The translations under genes and the position numbers were made by a program. Under the pieces are notes generated by a model. The model saw nothing but the letters and a program-made list of their open reading frames with translations. It did no database searches and was not told the origin of the DNA. From Deltaproteobacteria bacterium RBG_13_61_14 (GTDB lineage: Bacteria; RBG-13-61-14), in NCBI GenBank assembly GCA_001797815.1, contig MGQK01000061.1:1307-10878 (forward strand): a DNA stretch of 9,572 bases. Reading direction: 5' to 3'. Shown piece by piece: positions 684 through 9,572 of the stretch. Within the stretch, counting starts at the first letter, position 1. Each line of letters opens with the position of its first letter.

Positions 684-860
684 GTGGAGCGCATGCTGAC
701 GCTGGCCCAAGTGGCCGAGGCGCTGGGCGTTTCGGTGCTCACGGTCCGACGCTGGGCGCTCAAGCGCCGCTTTGCTTCACACAGACTCGGCGGGCGGGTG
801 CGCATTGCGGAGCGGGACTTGGAGCGCTGGCTGGCCGAAAACCGACGGGAGGCGCTTTGA
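684..860 (+). CDS. Excisionase-type HTH protein, 58 aa
   Basis: This short gene starts at GTG 684, with AAGGAG (671-676) seven bases upstream; the in-frame ATG at 693 is too far from that site. The protein reads MERMLTLAQVAEALGVSVLT, then VRRWALKRR, a basic stretch GGRVRIAERDLERW and a short tail. This is the MerR-like winged HTH of the excisionase family (helix_turn_helix_17 type): L-T-x2-E/Q-V-A-x2-L-G-V-S at the start and R-I-x3-D-L-x2-W near the end. Such proteins bend DNA at attachment sites to favour excision, or act as regulators. The tyrosine recombinase at the far end of the window is a plausible partner. Length is normal for the family. Confidence 0.82.
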   Translation: MERMLTLAQVAEALGVSVLTVRRWALKRRFASHRLGGRVRIAERDLERWLAENRREAL

Positions 861-862
861 TC

Positions 863-1102
863 ATGCGTCGCCGTTTCAATTACACCGACTATCTCCGCTC
901 GCCGGAGTGGGCCGAGGTGCGCCGGAAAATTATCAAGCGGTACAAGGGCCGCTGTGCGATCTGTAATGGGCCGGGTGAGGCCGTGCACCATTGGCACTAT
1001 CGCACGCTTGGCCGGGAGCGGCTTTTCGATTGCGCACTTGTATGTACGTCCTGTCATTCGGCGTGGCACCAGCGGCTCGGTGCGGAGGTCCGGGTTGATT
1101 AG
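863..1102 (+). CDS. Small HNH endonuclease, 79 aa
   Basis: ATG 863 follows GGGAGG (847-852) at 10 bases; the upstream TTG at 857 is too close to it. The protein carries the Cys-rich HNH layout: C31-x2-C34, a central VHHWHY with H42-H43 as the catalytic-type histidines, and C61-x2-C64-H65-x3-H69. The Cys pairs bind structural zinc, and the beta-beta-alpha-metal core cuts DNA. Free-standing HNH proteins of this size often lie beside phage terminases, where some are needed for DNA cleavage during packaging. Here the terminase genes lie about 0.9 kb downstream on the same strand. The gene ends in TAG, so TAG is used as an ordinary stop in this element. A role as a solitary homing-type nuclease is the alternative. 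Confidence 0.87.
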   Translation: MRRRFNYTDYLRSPEWAEVRRKIIKRYKGRCAICNGPGEAVHHWHYRTLGRERLFDCALVCTSCHSAWHQRLGAEVRVD

Positions 1103-1263: not shown

Positions 1264-1599
1264 ATGAGCAAGAAACGTGACCGCCGCTCATATGTCGGAC
1301 TTCACAAGGAGTGCGTCAATTCCAAGGAGTACGCCGAATTGAGCTTGAGAGCAAAGGCCCTGTATCCGCTTTTCAAGGTCAAGTACAACCCGCTTAAAAA
1401 CGACGGCCTCGTCCGGCTCTCACAACGTGAGGTGAAAAGGAAAAAGTGGCCCGGCTTCGGACGCCATGAGGCAATCGCCGCCACAATTCAAGAGCTGATT
1501 AACAGGGGCTGGCTAGAGCTGGCCGAACCGGGCGGCCTCCTCTCCGGCGCCCCAGCATACCGCCTCACTTTCCGCTTTGACGAGTACGGCAAAAGGTGA
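1264..1599 (+). CDS. Replication-type winged-helix protein, 111 aa
   Basis: The protein runs from MSKKRDRRSYVGLHKE to FRFDEYGKR. Its middle (residues about 23-105: LSLRAKALYPLFKVKYNPLK, NDGLVRLSQREV, HEAIAATIQELINRGWLEL, then AYRLTF) matches the pattern of a winged-helix domain frequent in phage replication or regulatory proteins: 'LS..ARALY..LK.RYN..NNG...LS.REA', then a recognition helix, a G-(W/F)-(I/L) turn and a beta wing. It is shorter than true replication initiators and has no helicase-loader or primase domain. Although the frame is open back to 1123, the 1123-1263 translation is low-complexity and covers the inverted repeats, so ATG 1264 is preferred even without a clear ribosome binding site. 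It lies directly upstream of the palindrome array, its most likely binding target if it starts replication or controls late genes. Confidence 0.72.
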   Translation: MSKKRDRRSYVGLHKECVNSKEYAELSLRAKALYPLFKVKYNPLKNDGLVRLSQREVKRKKWPGFGRHEAIAATIQELINRGWLELAEPGGLLSGAPAYRLTFRFDEYGKR

Positions 1600-1610
1600 C
1601 CGCCATGGGA

Positions 1611-1628
1611 ATGGTATATATATATAAT
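1611..1628 (+). promoter_or_regulatory. AT-rich run with a -10-like box beside the palindrome array
   Basis: In GC-rich surroundings, 1611-1628 is a TA-repeat tract ending in a perfect TATAAT (1623-1628). No acceptable -35 box lies 16-18 bases upstream, so it would need an activator, or it may be an easily melted element of a replication origin. The first 18-bp palindrome starts three bases later, exactly where a repressor would block a start site. Confidence 0.4.
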
Positions 1629-1630
1629 CC

Positions 1631-1755
1631 GTGCGCACTTATGCGCACACCCCCCCGTGCGTACTTATGCGCACGCCTAACAGGCGAGAGCCGTTGCCAT
1701 GCCCTTTTTGAGAAGGCCCAAAGTGTGCGCACATATGCGCACGCAGGTGTGCGCA
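1631..1755. repeat. Array of 18-bp interrupted palindromes (iterons or operators)
   Basis: Three copies share the form GTGCGCA-N4-TGCGCAC: 1631-1648 (spacer CTTA, perfect arms), 1657-1674 (spacer CTTA, one arm base changed to T) and 1725-1742 (spacer CATA, perfect arms). A single half site GTGCGCA follows at 1749-1755. CACCCCCC at 1648-1655 is complementary to GGGGGGTG at 1758-1765, so the two ends of the array could also pair. Repeated dyads beside an AT-rich run and after a winged-helix gene are typical of a replication origin with iterons or of a multi-site operator. No coding frame through it is convincing. Confidence 0.72.
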
Positions 1756-1772
1756 ACGGGGGGTGCGGGCAT

Positions 1773-1991
1773 ATGGCTGAAGGCACGGCCAAACAAAGGC
1801 GGCCCGAGGCCCCGGCCATGGCCCCAGCCCGGCCCCGAGATCACAAGGACAAGCGGGGGCTACGTAGTCCAACGCTCCGGCGGCCCGCATATGGGGGGAA
1901 TGAGGCGGGAGCCGCTGGCGTGTGCCGCACGTGTGCCATGTTTTCGGGCGCCCGGCCCCATGCTGGAGGTGATTGGAGGATGAGAACATGA
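1773..1991 (+). CDS. Uncertain small ORF upstream of the terminase module
   Basis: This 72-aa frame starts at ATG 1773 after a weak G-rich site. Its stop overlaps the next start as ATGA (1988-1991), a junction used elsewhere in this element. The product is basic and Ala/Pro/Arg-rich and ends with one Cys pair (VCRTCAMFSGARPHAGGDWR). The frame from ATG 1699 to the TGA at 1981-1983 overlaps it and shows stronger G/C preference at third codon positions, so I cannot say which frame, if either, is translated. No family is recognised. The 1600-1987 stretch is best regarded as mainly regulatory. Confidence 0.25.
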   Translation: MAEGTAKQRRPEAPAMAPARPRDHKDKRGLRSPTLRRPAYGGNEAGAAGVCRTCAMFSGARPHAGGDWRMRT

Positions 1992-2485
1992 GCCGAAAAA
2001 GCCGGGGCATTTTGCCGCCAGGGCCGGACCGCCGCCATGGGAGCCACACGTACTTGACGACGGGCAAGCTCCCGGCGCACCGGGCATACTTGCGGGAGTT
2101 TCTGATCGAAGCACGGGCTGGCCTCGTGCGTGATCACGGGCCGACGGAGGAGGACTTGACCATGGCCCAGCGGCTCTTGATTGACCGGGTGATCAGCAAG
2201 CTGGGCGTCATGCGGTGCTTGGAGGAGTGGGCCAGGGACTACGGCGTGATACAGGGCGGCGACTTGGCGGGGCCGTTTAGGGAAAGCTATCTGGCGTACG
2301 CCAACAGCATGCGCTTTGACTTGACGGCGCTGGGCGTGAAGGTGCGGGCTGGGCGTGAGGCGTTGTCGGTTTTGGAGGTGCTGGCGGAGGACAAAAAGGC
2401 GGAGGAGAAGGCGGAGAAGGCTGACAAGGAGGTGGAGGGTGAGAAACAACACACCGATGAAGGCAATAGTGGCGTTTTGCCTTGA
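1988..2485 (+). CDS. Terminase small-subunit-like protein, 165 aa
   Basis: ATG 1988 follows GGAGGA (1975-1980) at seven bases. The N-terminus is basic (MSRKSRGILPPGPDRRHGSH). A helical core follows (residues about 30-130) with FRESYLAYANSMRFDLTALG at 97-116, a pattern of tyrosine, asparagine and leucine seen in small proteins just upstream of phage terminase large subunits, including P27-type small subunits. The tail from about 133 is a charged, Lys/Glu-rich helix, probably flexible or coiled. A small subunit would recognise packaging-site DNA and hand it to the large subunit encoded 250 bases downstream. The call rests on position, size and the pattern, not on a sure family match; another helical phage DNA-binding protein is possible. 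Confidence 0.6.
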   Translation: MSRKSRGILPPGPDRRHGSHTYLTTGKLPAHRAYLREFLIEARAGLVRDHGPTEEDLTMAQRLLIDRVISKLGVMRCLEEWARDYGVIQGGDLAGPFRESYLAYANSMRFDLTALGVKVRAGREALSVLEVLAEDKKAEEKAEKADKEVEGEKQHTDEGNSGVLP

Positions 2486-2603
2486 GTGCGTCGGCGGTAG
2501 CAAAAAAGAGGTTGAGGAGTGTGAGGCTAGGGCGTGCCCGTTGTGGCGGTGGAGGTCACGGACCGCTCGTAGAATCGAACGGCAAGCTGATGTCATTAGT
2601 TAG
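2439..2603 (+). CDS. Small conserved Cys-rich phage protein, 54 aa
   Basis: The best start is GTG 2439, with AAGGAGGT (2426-2433) five bases upstream; the in-frame ATG at 2457 has no site at a proper distance. The core reads MKAIVAFCLECVGGSKKEVE and then ECEARACPLWRWR. This matches a family of very small phage and prophage proteins with the signature CLxCxGGSxKEVxxCxxxxCPLxxxR. Four cysteines (CxxC plus C-x5-C) probably form a small zinc site. Family function is unknown, but members occur in phage gene blocks, often near packaging genes. It overlaps the previous gene by 47 bases in another frame. The usual CPLYPYR is changed to CPLWRWR here, and the C-terminus is extended. Confidence 0.82.
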   Translation: MRNNTPMKAIVAFCLECVGGSKKEVEECEARACPLWRWRSRTARRIERQADVIS

Positions 2604-2654
2604 AGGCTCTTGTGGGAGGCGTTTTCTTTATGGGGCGGCAGGGGTGGTAGCGGG

Positions 2655-2735
2655 GTGCTCGTGAAAATCGAAATTAGGGCCGTTTCCGTGCGGTTTATTG
2701 CTTGTCGGTTTTTTCTGAAGGTGACAATGCCGTGA
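2655..2735 (+). CDS. Possible 26-aa peptide coupled to the terminase
   Basis: GTG 2655, about 10 bases after AGGGG, opens a 26-codon frame reading MLVKIEIRAVSVRFIACRFF then LKVTMP. Its TGA (2733-2735) overlaps the terminase GTG start (2732-2734), a typical coupled junction. The alternating hydrophobic pattern VKIEIRAVSVRFIACRFFLKV suggests a single beta-hairpin-like peptide or a membrane-touching strand. It fills the only gap between the Cys-rich protein and the terminase. I do not recognise a family with certainty. It is short enough to be chance, but the junction and the ordered composition argue for translation. Confidence 0.42.
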   Translation: MLVKIEIRAVSVRFIACRFFLKVTMP

Positions 2736-4141
2736 ACATATTGGAGGCGATGGCCGACGCCCGTTTTTTCAAGCCGTTGTTCAAGGACGCCGCAACGTGG
2801 GAGGCGTGGCGTGTTTTCCTTGCGGCGCTTTTCGAGCCGGGGGAGGCGGGGTTTCGGTTGTACAAGGAGGCGACGGGGCGGGGCAAGTGGCCGGGGGGGG
2901 CGGCCCAGCGGGCTTTTGTGATCGCCGGGCGGCGCTCGGGCAAGTCGTTTATCTCGGCGCTTGTGGCCACGTACTTGGCGGCGTTTCGGGAGTGGAGGCC
3001 GCACTTGTCGCCGGGTGAGCGGGCCATGGTGCTGGTGATTGCGGTGGACAAGGAGCAAGCGTCCATTGTGCGGCACTATGTGGGCGGGTTTCTTCGGGCG
3101 GTCCCGGCGCTCCGGGCCATGCTGGAGAAGGAAACCGCCGAGGGGCTGGCGCTCAAAAACCGGGTGACAATTGCGGTCAAGGCGTGCAATTTCCGGGCGC
3201 TCCGGGGCTTCACCGTGGCCGCCGCCATTTTGGAGGAGTTGGCGTTTTGGCGGAGTGAGGAGTCGGCCAACCCGGACCGGAAGGTGATGAGGGCGCTGGA
3301 GCCAGCGCTGGCCTCGGTGCCCGGCTCGCTCTTGCTCGGGATAAGTACACCGTATTCACGGAGCGGCGCCTTGTGGGATGAGTTTCGGGCGGGCTTCGGG
3401 GTTGAGGACGGGCCGCTCGTGTGGCGGGCGCCGACGGCCACAATGAACCCGACGCTTGCCGCCTCCACAATCGAGCGGGCCTTGCGGGTTGACCCGGAGG
3501 CCGCACGGGCGGAGTGGCTGGCCGAGTGGCGGGAGGACTTGGCGGGCTTTGTGTCGTCCGAGGTTGTGGAGGCGGTCACTTATCCGGGCCGCTTTGAGTT
3601 GCCCAAGCTCCAGGGCGCCGCATACGTTGCGGCGATAGACCCGAGCGGCGGGCGGAATGACAGTTTCACTTTGGCCGTGGCGCACCGTGATCAAAAAACC
3701 GAGCGGGCCGTGCTTGACGTTTTGCGGGAGGTCAAGCCGCCGTTCAAGCCGCAGGGCGTTGTTGAGGAGTTTTCCCGGCTCCTCAAGGACTACGGCTTGC
3801 GGGAGGTTGTGAGTGACCGCTTCGCCGGGGAGTGGGTTGCGGAGGCTTTTGACAAGTGCGAGGTCAAAGTGGTGCCCGCCGAGCTTACGGCCTCGGAGGC
3901 GTACTTGGAGCTTTTGCCCTTGCTTATGAACGGCGGGATTGAGCTTTTAGATCACAAGCGGCTCAAGGCACAGTTGAGCGGGCTTGAGCGCCGGGTGCGG
4001 AGCGGGGGCAAGGATATTGTCACCCACTACCAGGGCGGGCACGACGATTGCGCCAACGCCGTGGCGCTGGCGCTCCTCCAAGCCAAGCGGAGCGCCGAGA
4101 GCGGCTTTTATATCGGCTGGAGCCGCCGCAATGTTTGGTGA
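2732..4141 (+). CDS. terL: Phage terminase large subunit, 469 aa
   Basis: This is the ATP-driven DNA packaging motor and nuclease. GTG 2732 is chosen because AAGGTGA (2718-2724) lies seven bases upstream and the preceding small frame overlaps it. Domains: an N-terminal ATPase with Walker A AGRRSGKS (65-72), Walker B ending in acidic EE (ILEELAFW, 166-173), and the coupling motif LLGISTPYSRSG (201-212). A C-terminal RNase-H-like nuclease follows with three acidic positions, AIDPSGG (D303), VVSDRF (D362) and GGHDDCANA (D438/D439). All key residues are present, and length is normal for the family, so the protein looks functional. It follows the small-subunit-like gene as expected, but no portal gene follows; instead a 66-aa gene overlaps its end. 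Confidence 0.95.
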   Translation: MNILEAMADARFFKPLFKDAATWEAWRVFLAALFEPGEAGFRLYKEATGRGKWPGGAAQRAFVIAGRRSGKSFISALVATYLAAFREWRPHLSPGERAMVLVIAVDKEQASIVRHYVGGFLRAVPALRAMLEKETAEGLALKNRVTIAVKACNFRALRGFTVAAAILEELAFWRSEESANPDRKVMRALEPALASVPGSLLLGISTPYSRSGALWDEFRAGFGVEDGPLVWRAPTATMNPTLAASTIERALRVDPEAARAEWLAEWREDLAGFVSSEVVEAVTYPGRFELPKLQGAAYVAAIDPSGGRNDSFTLAVAHRDQKTERAVLDVLREVKPPFKPQGVVEEFSRLLKDYGLREVVSDRFAGEWVAEAFDKCEVKVVPAELTASEAYLELLPLLMNGGIELLDHKRLKAQLSGLERRVRSGGKDIVTHYQGGHDDCANAVALALLQAKRSAESGFYIGWSRRNVW

Positions 4142-8188: not shown

Positions 8189-8377
8189 ATGACAAAGCAG
8201 GGAACGGTCAAACAGCTGAAGGCTTACAAGGAAAAAACGGGCTTCTCCAACGCCCGGCTGGCCGCTGAAATCGGCGTGCACAAGCTCACGCTGACGCTGT
8301 GGCTGGAGGGAAAATTCAAGCCTTCCAATATGGCCGAGCGGCTGGTGGAAAATTATCTGGCAGGGAGGACAAAATGA
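8189..8377 (+). CDS. Small HTH (Xre/Cro-like) DNA-binding protein, 62 aa
   Basis: The protein is little more than a helix-turn-helix: residues 9-45 read LKAYKEKTGFSNARLAAEIG and VHKLTLTLWLEGKFKPS, with the A-R-L-A-A-E-I-G-V turn and a following recognition helix typical of the Xre/Cro class. It probably binds as a dimer to the palindromes in its own promoter and acts as the element's repressor or an integrase regulator. The ATG at 8189 has no Shine-Dalgarno site and lies a few bases after the predicted transcript start, so leaderless initiation is likely. Its end overlaps the integrase start as ATGA (8374-8377), so the two are co-expressed. Base use fits the GC-rich backbone, not the cargo. 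Confidence 0.75.
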   Translation: MTKQGTVKQLKAYKEKTGFSNARLAAEIGVHKLTLTLWLEGKFKPSNMAERLVENYLAGRTK

Positions 8378-8808
8378 CAGGACGGGTTTATTCTCGGAAG
8401 ATCAAGGGCGGCACCACGTGGGCAATTGACTACACGGAGCCGGGGGGCCGGAGGGTGCGGCAAATAATCGGCCCGAGCAAAACGCTGGCCAACGAGGTGC
8501 TGACGGCCCGGCTGGGCGACGTGGTGCGGGGCACCAACAAGCTGGCCCCGAAAAAGGCGCCGAGGGTGCGGGAGTTTCGGGAGGAGTATCTTGCCACGAT
8601 CAAGGCGAGTGGCCGCTTTTGGCGCCGCCACGCCGTGTCGCTCAAGCGGCTGGCGGTGTTTTTCGGTGACATAGCGCTTGATAAAATCCGGCTCTCCGAC
8701 TTGGTGCGGTACAGAAACGAGCGCCAGCGCAAGGTTGGCCCGGCCACGGTCAACCGGGAGTTGGCGTGTCTCCGGCACATGTTCAACACGGCCAAGCGCA
8801 TGGGCTAG
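8374..8808 (+). CDS. int: Tyrosine recombinase, N-terminal part ending at an in-frame amber
   Basis: ATG 8374 follows GGGAGGAC closely and overlaps the HTH gene's stop as ATGA. The 144 residues hold the arm-type DNA-binding region (about 1-60: MTGRVYSRKIKGGTTWAIDY and on) and most of the core-binding SAM-like helical domain (about 65-144: FREEYLATIKASGRFWRRHA to RELACLRHMFNTAKRMG). Translation stops at TAG 8806-8808, exactly in frame with the catalytic part that begins at 8812. In related integrases this point is read straight through (an A-x-R-x-G, then a residue or two, then ENP pattern), so the stop interrupts one gene. TGG to TAG by one base is the simplest origin. Confidence 0.85.
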   Translation: MTGRVYSRKIKGGTTWAIDYTEPGGRRVRQIIGPSKTLANEVLTARLGDVVRGTNKLAPKKAPRVREFREEYLATIKASGRFWRRHAVSLKRLAVFFGDIALDKIRLSDLVRYRNERQRKVGPATVNRELACLRHMFNTAKRMG

Positions 8809-8811
8809 GTT

Positions 8812-9498
8812 ATGGGCGAAAACCCGGTGACAAAGGACGCCTTTGTGAAAGAGTCACCCAAGATCAAGCGGGACATGACGGCGGAGGAGATCGCCCACTT
8901 GCTCCGCTCGTTTGACGAGAAAGCCAAGCACGCCCGGCTCGTGGCCGTGGTGGTGCTCAACACGGGATTGCGGCAAACCGAGGCCACGGGCCTCCGCTGG
9001 GACAACGTGGACTTTGAGCACGGGCGCATAATCATTGACAAGACCAAGGACGGCACGGCGCATTGTGTCGCCATGACGCCAACGCTGGCCGCCGAGCTTC
9101 GGGCGTGGCCCAAGGTGAGCAAGTACGTTTTCCCGACGCTCACCCGCAAGGACAAGGGACCGCAAAGGGAGCGGCCCATGGGTTCGATCAAGCGGGCGTT
9201 TGCAACCGCCGTTGACAAGGCCGCCAAGGAATATCCGGCGCTCGCTGGCATGACGCTCCATCACTTGCGGCACCACGCCGGACGTGTTCTAATACGGCAC
9301 GGGGCGAGCGTCGTTGTGGCCCAGGCGCTTCTCGGGCACAAGGACGTGCGCACTACGATGAGGTACTTGCATGTGGCCAGCGAAGGCTATTTGAAACAAG
9401 CCGCCGAGGCCCTGGAGGACGAGAACGCCCGGCAAAATGGCACACCTACGGCACACGAGCCTTTCCGTGGCACCAAGGAAAGCAAGGCAACGAATTGA
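8812..9498 (+). CDS. int: Tyrosine recombinase, C-terminal catalytic part, 228 aa
   Basis: This frame continues the integrase after the amber codon and begins with ATG only three bases beyond it, so re-initiation could yield a separate catalytic polypeptide. It starts with the ENPV linker and carries the complete tyrosine-recombinase catalytic set: R54 (NTGLRQTEATGL), a lysine in the beta-turn (IIIDKTKDG, K77 or K79), H150-x2-R153 (LHHLRHH), H176 (LLGHKDV) and the nucleophile Y185 (RYLHVA). The enzyme cuts and rejoins DNA at attachment sites; alone, this part lacks most of the core-binding domain. The tail after about residue 200 is hydrophilic. No catalytic residue is lost, so inactivation, if any, is recent. 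The tRNA gene follows after 13 bases. Confidence 0.88.
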   Translation: MGENPVTKDAFVKESPKIKRDMTAEEIAHLLRSFDEKAKHARLVAVVVLNTGLRQTEATGLRWDNVDFEHGRIIIDKTKDGTAHCVAMTPTLAAELRAWPKVSKYVFPTLTRKDKGPQRERPMGSIKRAFATAVDKAAKEYPALAGMTLHHLRHHAGRVLIRHGASVVVAQALLGHKDVRTTMRYLHVASEGYLKQAAEALEDENARQNGTPTAHEPFRGTKESKATN

Positions 9499-9511: not shown

Positions 9512-9572
9512 GCGCCCGTAGCTCAGTGGATAGAGCGGTGGACTTCGAATCCAAAGGTCGGGGGTTCAAATC
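9512..9572 (+). tRNA. tRNA-Arg(TCG), 5' part, truncated by window end
   Basis: The acceptor arm GCGCCCG (9512-9518) is followed by TA, the D stem GCTC/GAGC (9521-9524/9533-9536) with loop AGTGGATA, and the anticodon loop CTTCGAA with anticodon TCG (9545-9547), reading arginine CGA and related CGN codons. The variable region and the start of the T arm (GGGGGTTCAAATC) follow. The anticodon stem has four good pairs and a G-A mismatch at the base. About 15 bases of the 3' end lie outside the window. tRNA genes are common integration targets for tyrosine recombinases. Confidence 0.9.

Follow-up and report, generated by a model that had tools for sequence, protein, structure and literature searches.

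A putative iteron-type replication origin beside a winged-helix gene in a phage-satellite-like element of a deltaproteobacterium

An integrative element of Deltaproteobacteria bacterium RBG_13_61_14 carries an array of palindromes flanked by an AT-rich box, just downstream of the gene for a short winged-helix (wHTH) protein, and we consider the array and box to be, with good probability, a replication origin of the iteron type that is bound by this protein. We favor this reading because the array and box are conserved together with the wHTH gene, because the protein family is initiator-like, and because phage lambda and phage satellites offer parallels. In the mechanism that we propose, the 18-bp dyads would act as iterons for the wHTH protein encoded immediately before them, probably with one dimer bound per dyad and with cooperation between dimers. 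The bound dimers would then bend or wrap the DNA and melt the A/T run and TACCA box next to the array, so that a helicase of the host or of a helper phage could load there once the element has been excised. Each of these steps, i.e., wHTH binding, melting, helicase loading, and replication, is one that we infer from comparison of sequences.

Results

The window, meaning the whole stretch of DNA that was analyzed, comprises the final 9572 bases of a 10,878-base contig from a 4.7-Mb genome, whose phylum is represented by only three genomes in our collection. It holds an integrative, phage-satellite-like element of roughly 9.5 kb, as judged from an integrase gene, a repeat at a tRNA-gene junction, and the lack of a full set of virion genes. 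The recognizable features of the element outside the array are as follows.

684–860, plus strand: HTH_17 (excisionase/AlpA-like) gene (Pfam HTH_17, 1e-14)
857–1102, plus strand: HNH endonuclease-like gene (PHROG 119, 7.5e-9)
1264–1599, plus strand: gene for the 111-aa wHTH protein, the proposed origin-binding initiator (homology to relatives)
1988–2485, plus strand: probable small terminase (TerS), 165 aa, with 43% identity to the product of the gene immediately before TerL in viral contig L030
2732–4141, plus strand: large terminase (TerL; PHROG 2, 8e-25; relatives in L021 and L025–L030)
8374–9498, plus strand: tyrosine integrase with an in-frame TAG at 8806–8808 (Pfam Int_N, 4e-7, and Phage_integrase, 8e-29, one per half)
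9512–9572, plus strand: tRNA-gene-like sequence, right junction

The element also carries small genes of no recognized family, and searches against Pfam and PHROG families found no capsid, portal, helicase, primase, or loader family in it. At its left junction, a sequence resembling the beginning of a tRNA gene (GCGCCCGTAGC...) lies at contig positions 1259–1269, before an N gap, and a longer copy forms the right junction at the contig end. ARAGORN called no tRNA at either copy, presumably because both are cut. The TAG codon in the integrase gene separates the N-terminal from the catalytic part; the element may have become immobile, or an assembly error may account for the base. On the contig upstream of the window (L013, 806–1249), just before the left tRNA-like junction, there is a short frame with an integrase-like C terminus (VRKLVGHSSLLVTQRYIHAD), which is probably left over from a previous integration there. 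The TerS and TerL genes (1988–4141) stand without portal or capsid genes, while the same pair in L030 is followed by a portal-type protein (identified by reading); the element thus seems, from its gene content, to have kept only the packaging motor. In G178 (L021), a similar TerL gene has an integrase gene as its neighbor, and a RadC-like gene comes next. We also noted a perfect palindrome, GGTTGCCATGGCAACC, at 221–236, upstream of the first gene of the element.

The array and the adjoining box lie between the wHTH and TerS genes and consist of the following parts.

1604–1630, minus strand: AT-rich block with TACCAT (the TACCA box), the proposed unwinding element, located with a matrix from relatives; the plus strand reads ATGGTATATATATATAATCC from 1611
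1631–1648, unstranded: dyad site 1, GTGCGCA-CTTA-TGCGCAC (GTGCGCACTTATGCGCAC), an exact dyad
1650–1656, plus strand: run of seven C's between sites 1 and 2 (direct reading)
1657–1674, unstranded: dyad site 2, GTGCGTA-CTTA-TGCGCAC (GTGCGTACTTATGCGCAC), with one mismatch
1725–1742, unstranded: dyad site 3, GTGCGCA-CATA-TGCGCAC (GTGCGCACATATGCGCAC), an exact dyad
1749–1755, plus strand: half site GTGCGCA (direct reading)
1758–1763, plus strand: run of six G's (direct reading)

An earlier, sequence-only reading of this DNA had described three GTGCGCA-N4-TGCGCAC sites and a half site behind a TATA run containing TATAAT, and all of these were found again, site 2 with its one mismatch. The TATAAT lies at 1623–1628 within an A/T run of 14–15 bp (about 1615–1628), so that, as looked for in an iteron origin, at least three repeated sites, here three dyads and a half site, stand beside an A/T-rich stretch. 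The 8-base complementarity of the outer C-run and G-run that had also been pointed out holds as well: CACCCCCC at 1648–1655 is complementary to GGGGGGTG at 1758–1765, and the two runs pair in the folded single strand. When the window was shuffled with its dinucleotide composition preserved, none of 300 shuffles gave any comparable pair of palindromes (two N4 palindromes that agree at 16 or more of 18 positions and lie within 150 bp), vs. three pairs in the real window. Across the whole 4.7-Mb genome, no place other than the three dyads matches with fewer than two mismatches. Since the dyads are confined to the element, the protein that reads them is probably encoded by the element too. In viral contigs, the exact dyad motif gave four single, scattered matches, which we judged to be due to chance. 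The iterons of the window have no central A tract, the A/T element is short, and GC skew around the array showed no clear origin-like switch.

An open reading frame at 1605–1991 was considered as a coding cause of the repeats and rejected, the full sites falling in three different frames and the codon score being −0.18. For comparison, nine of 10 element genes scored from +0.19 to +0.56, and the small HNH gene scored −0.03. Thus, the stretch is not coding; a conserved protein encoded here is what the earlier reading had named as a finding that would count against it.

Searches with the wHTH protein alone, which is too diverged for this purpose, found no close relatives in viral contigs, named genome contigs, or phage records, and a direct search of viral contigs found no close relatives of TerS. 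The bridge to relatives was TerL, which is 42% identical in G178. Two-sequence TerL alignment then yielded six loci in two collections (37–45% identical), including a Fulvimarina prophage (L029) and viral contig L030. The wHTH protein of the Fulvimarina prophage is 32% identical to that of the window (pairwise E 7e-9), and five GTCACG-AAAAC-CGTGAC-like sites lie across the 3' end of its gene and the bases after it. The same wHTH gene was present in eight further viral contigs, again with arrays at the gene ends, and the array spacing was 23/32/22/44 wherever all five sites were clear. Both arms of the palindrome change together, to GTCATG..CATGAC in L036 and to GTCCCC..GGGGAC in L040. To judge from these sequences, a motif that drifts yet stays palindromic is the pattern of a co-evolving protein–site pair.

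Using profiles A2 and A3, which were built from these sequences, we found the wHTH family in further genomes of the order, class, and phylum to which Fulvimarina belongs and, beyond that phylum, in a few more. Among 59 nonredundant wHTH loci, the mean repeat score was 3.71 in the 360 bp around and after the end of the wHTH domain, compared with 2.39 in an upstream stretch of the same length and 2.18 for shuffled sequence, with repeats being hard to see in some loci. A further locus, L112 (G002), comes from the same bacterial order as the source genome; downstream of its wHTH gene lie four CGCTTCAATTCTTAAAGCG-like palindromes and GTATATATCTACCAGGGG. Together, the 59 loci and L112 show that sites of this kind are linked to a cognate wHTH gene across relatives, as would be expected of an iteron origin. 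Loss of the repeats from relatives that keep the wHTH gene, which the earlier reading had regarded as evidence against itself, was not what we saw, as relatives, which belong to prophages or to small integrative elements, mostly carry a cognate array at or just beyond the 3' end of the gene.

In the relatives, the box is A/T-rich, about 10–15 bp long, and lies beside the last repeat; it ends in TA(N)CCA(T), usually TACCAT, and is often followed by G's. The A/T run of the window, which abuts site 1, is an inverted form of this conserved box, a point that the earlier reading had overlooked, and it points back toward the wHTH gene. When a weight matrix built from 38 relatives, with the window left out, was run over both strands of the whole window, the best score was 19.9 bits for minus-strand positions 1604–1630 (GGATTATATATATATACCATTCCCATG), the next being 13.0; the same positions were the top match of the window with the matrix from the leave-one-out series. 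In L112, which had not been used for the matrix, the top match was the GTATATATCTACCAGGGG element noted above (20.8 bits). A strict regular expression found the box on the gene strand in 30 of the 59 loci, on the other strand in seven, and upstream, counting both strands, in five. By leave-one-out scanning of a roughly 3-kb stretch per locus, the top match fell between −30 and +330 of the wHTH domain end in 39 of the 59 loci, compared with 6.6 expected by position, and 20 loci had no top-scoring box in place. The box seeds had been picked by eye in the same regions, a bias that leaving one out only partly cures; among the loci not used as seeds, the box was in place in eight of 23 (about 2.6 expected). 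Of the 39 boxes in place, 37 point downstream and two, those of the window and L094, are reversed. In L111, the box overlaps the last codons of the gene and is only the second-best match in that locus; it is probably another reversed case. For an origin, we expect that such inversion would matter little.

We also asked what the wHTH family resembles. In a 13-member alignment (A3), nine members matched phrog_186, a DnaD-like helicase loader (4e-9), and the replication initiation families phrog_270 and phrog_428 were matched by seven and six members, respectively, and the O-like phrog_345 by five. Among PHROGs, the family matches replication-initiator models most often; general HTH models match it as well, with several members matching MarR, Crp, or IclR HTH models. 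The window protein had no significant PHROG family match of its own, its link to initiators running through relatives at about 30% identity, and its sole Pfam match was RepA_N (PF06970; E 0.17, 12.2 bits vs. a cutoff of 30). When the family profile was compared with solved structures, the closest were the HTHs of transcription factors, over the HTH portion only, and chains of the RepA N-domain appeared at E about 0.06. A single-sequence fold reached a pLDDT of 41 and a 10-sequence fold a weak 61, and a PDB search gave no useful match. Among plasmid records, the wHTH protein occurred only in three large replicons (0.36–1.7 Mb), with no small plasmid having it as sole Rep. The earlier suggestion of iterons with a melting element is well supported by the homologues, which keep the array and AT-rich box and most of which match phage replication-initiator models.

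The elements examined share a module composed of an integrase gene, usually an HTH_17 gene, the wHTH gene, and the array with its box, often with a DUF6074 gene next. An HTH_17-type gene also stands ahead of the wHTH gene in L062 and L114 and, as a weak match, in L054. The module lies about 9.5 kb from TerS–TerL in L054 and occurs without a recognized packaging gene in L062 and L114. No other replication gene was recognized in the window, L054, L060, L061, or L062.

Three further observations concern neighbors and variants of this module. A DUF6074 gene lies directly 3' of the array in L029, L054, L060, and L061, which are of the alphaproteobacterial type, and none was recognized in the window; DUF6074 is a candidate partner, possibly one that recruits the helicase. 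In L050 (G457), a protein of ~560 aa has two tandem wHTH-like domains, and copies of GGCCTCA(A/T)(A/G)AGCGGAACAC occur in its gene just after the second. Besides its wHTH gene, the phage-like contig L115 (G218) has four copies of a GCGCTGTAGATTAGCGC-like site in an array with a reversed box, and its opposite strand carries a DnaB-like helicase gene; in larger phages such as this one, the gene content suggests that the wHTH protein may share in initiation rather than act as sole initiator.

Discussion

Could the array serve transcription rather than replication? If the wHTH protein were a transcriptional regulator, the dyads would be its operators and the AT-rich TACCA box a promoter (−10 and start) controlled from them. 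Such folds and palindromic sites are typical of repressors, and the matches to MarR, Crp, and IclR models fit this picture, as do the TATAAT, −10-like boxes of L051, L062, L072, and L073 and the predominance of one orientation (37 plus vs. two minus). However, no −35 element lies at a usable spacing from the TATAAT of the window, and a scan of 1100–2800, which covers the sigma-70 type only, found no −35/−10 pair. As a promoter, the reversed box of the window, L094, and probably L111 would drive antisense transcription into the wHTH gene, and the pairing of an invariant TACCA with a flank that is A/T-rich in a loose way does not resemble a promoter consensus. Moreover, the sites lie 3' of the wHTH gene and not at its own promoter, the downstream genes vary (TerS, DUF6074, HTH/Int) and so form no common regulon, and it is initiator PHROGs that the family matches most commonly. 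We therefore regard an operator array as unlikely, and the repressor-controlled start of the packaging operon that the sequence-only reading had offered as its second option finds no backing: a −35 is lacking, the box faces the wHTH gene, and L062 and L114 carry the module without a recognized packaging gene.

The remaining explanations are less probable still. A packaging site (cos or pac), with the dyads as terminase-binding sites like the R sites of lambda cosB and the box as the cleavage region, would suit the position of the array between an HNH gene and TerS–TerL, where cos is often found in HK97-like phages, and TerS proteins can themselves be of the wHTH type. Since the element has a separate TerS beside TerL, and the module lies far from this pair in L054 and apart from any recognized packaging gene in L062 and L114, we think this improbable. 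Some plasmid centromeres likewise pair a small wHTH gene with an adjoining repeat array, a layout matching that of the window, and a partition site of a one-protein segregation system (TubR- or StbA-like) could be imagined on these grounds. Yet no ParA- or TubZ-like gene was recognized in the element, integrative elements rarely need partition, and the family matches replication rather than partition PHROGs, which makes this very improbable. Hardly credible, finally, is a chance or compositional repeat or a set of RNA hairpins acting in the transcript. The plus strand of the array does fold better than shuffles (z −2.7 as RNA and −3.7 as DNA), and in RNA a G-U pair would accommodate the mismatch of site 2; against this, shuffles produced no such repeats, the array and box recur with homologous wHTH genes, and a strand-specific element would not tolerate the reversed box of the window, L094, and probably L111.

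A replication origin read by the wHTH protein has parallels in well-known systems. In the lambda origin, which served as a positive control, TCCCTC-AAAAC-GAGGGA iterons lie inside gene O, an A/T-rich stretch adjoins them, and they share both the 6-N5-6 geometry and the AAAAC center with the iterons of the Fulvimarina prophage. In both types, a short series of dyad iterons follows a wHTH initiator gene or overlaps it, and A/T-rich DNA borders the series on one side. Here, however, the protein consists of one short domain, the iterons of the window have a 7-N4-7 form, and a TACCA box is conserved in the family. Comparison of A3 and A2 with O by hhalign gave a probability of 0.2–0.6%, while some relatives do match O-like PHROGs, and no helicase-loader family was found in the element such as gene P supplies beside the lambda initiator. 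The origins of PICIs lie immediately 3' of the rep gene and combine iterons with an AT-rich stretch (PMC6092414). The element resembles these integrase-bearing phage satellites (SaPI/EcCI) in having such a region directly 3' of the initiator gene (PMC6092414), but PICI iteron sets flank the AT stretch on both sides and belong to a primase/rep module, whereas the window iterons lie on one side only and the wHTH protein is without an enzymatic domain. Iterons of RepA_N initiators are inverted repeats converging on an A tract, and a PLE satellite uses them as well (PMC7145576). In pSK41/pTZ2162 and in RepA of the Vibrio cholerae PLE, a wHTH N-domain binds inverted-repeat iterons, which, together with the use by a phage satellite, resembles our proposal (PMC7145576); the window protein differs in falling below the Pfam cutoff, with weak matches, and in having no C-terminal domain.

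An iteron origin beside a wHTH initiator gene is thus of a known kind, and by sequence the wHTH family is not lambda O and stays below the RepA_N cutoff. We found no description of the combination of a single-domain protein, a one-sided array, and a shared TACCA box in the literature, which we consulted mostly in non-subscription journals. The layout, with its motif spelled differently each time, is found again in similar elements from many unrelated bacteria, apparently without having been described. It is conceivable, though we are doubtful, that these elements form a widespread and undescribed class of minimal replicons across several phyla, in which a single-domain wHTH protein with a private, co-evolving dyad array and a shared, invertible TACCA box relies on host machinery, with no helicase, primase, or loader encoded by the element.

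Many small integrative elements lack a recognizable replication gene, and the module, if the proposal is true, would supply one. The wHTH gene, the array, and the TACCA box together make a signature that can be searched for across several phyla, and the element-specific sites make the family naturally suited to studying how wHTH proteins recognize DNA. Should a conserved host factor use the TACCA box, the box would be a pointer to how short initiators load the helicase.
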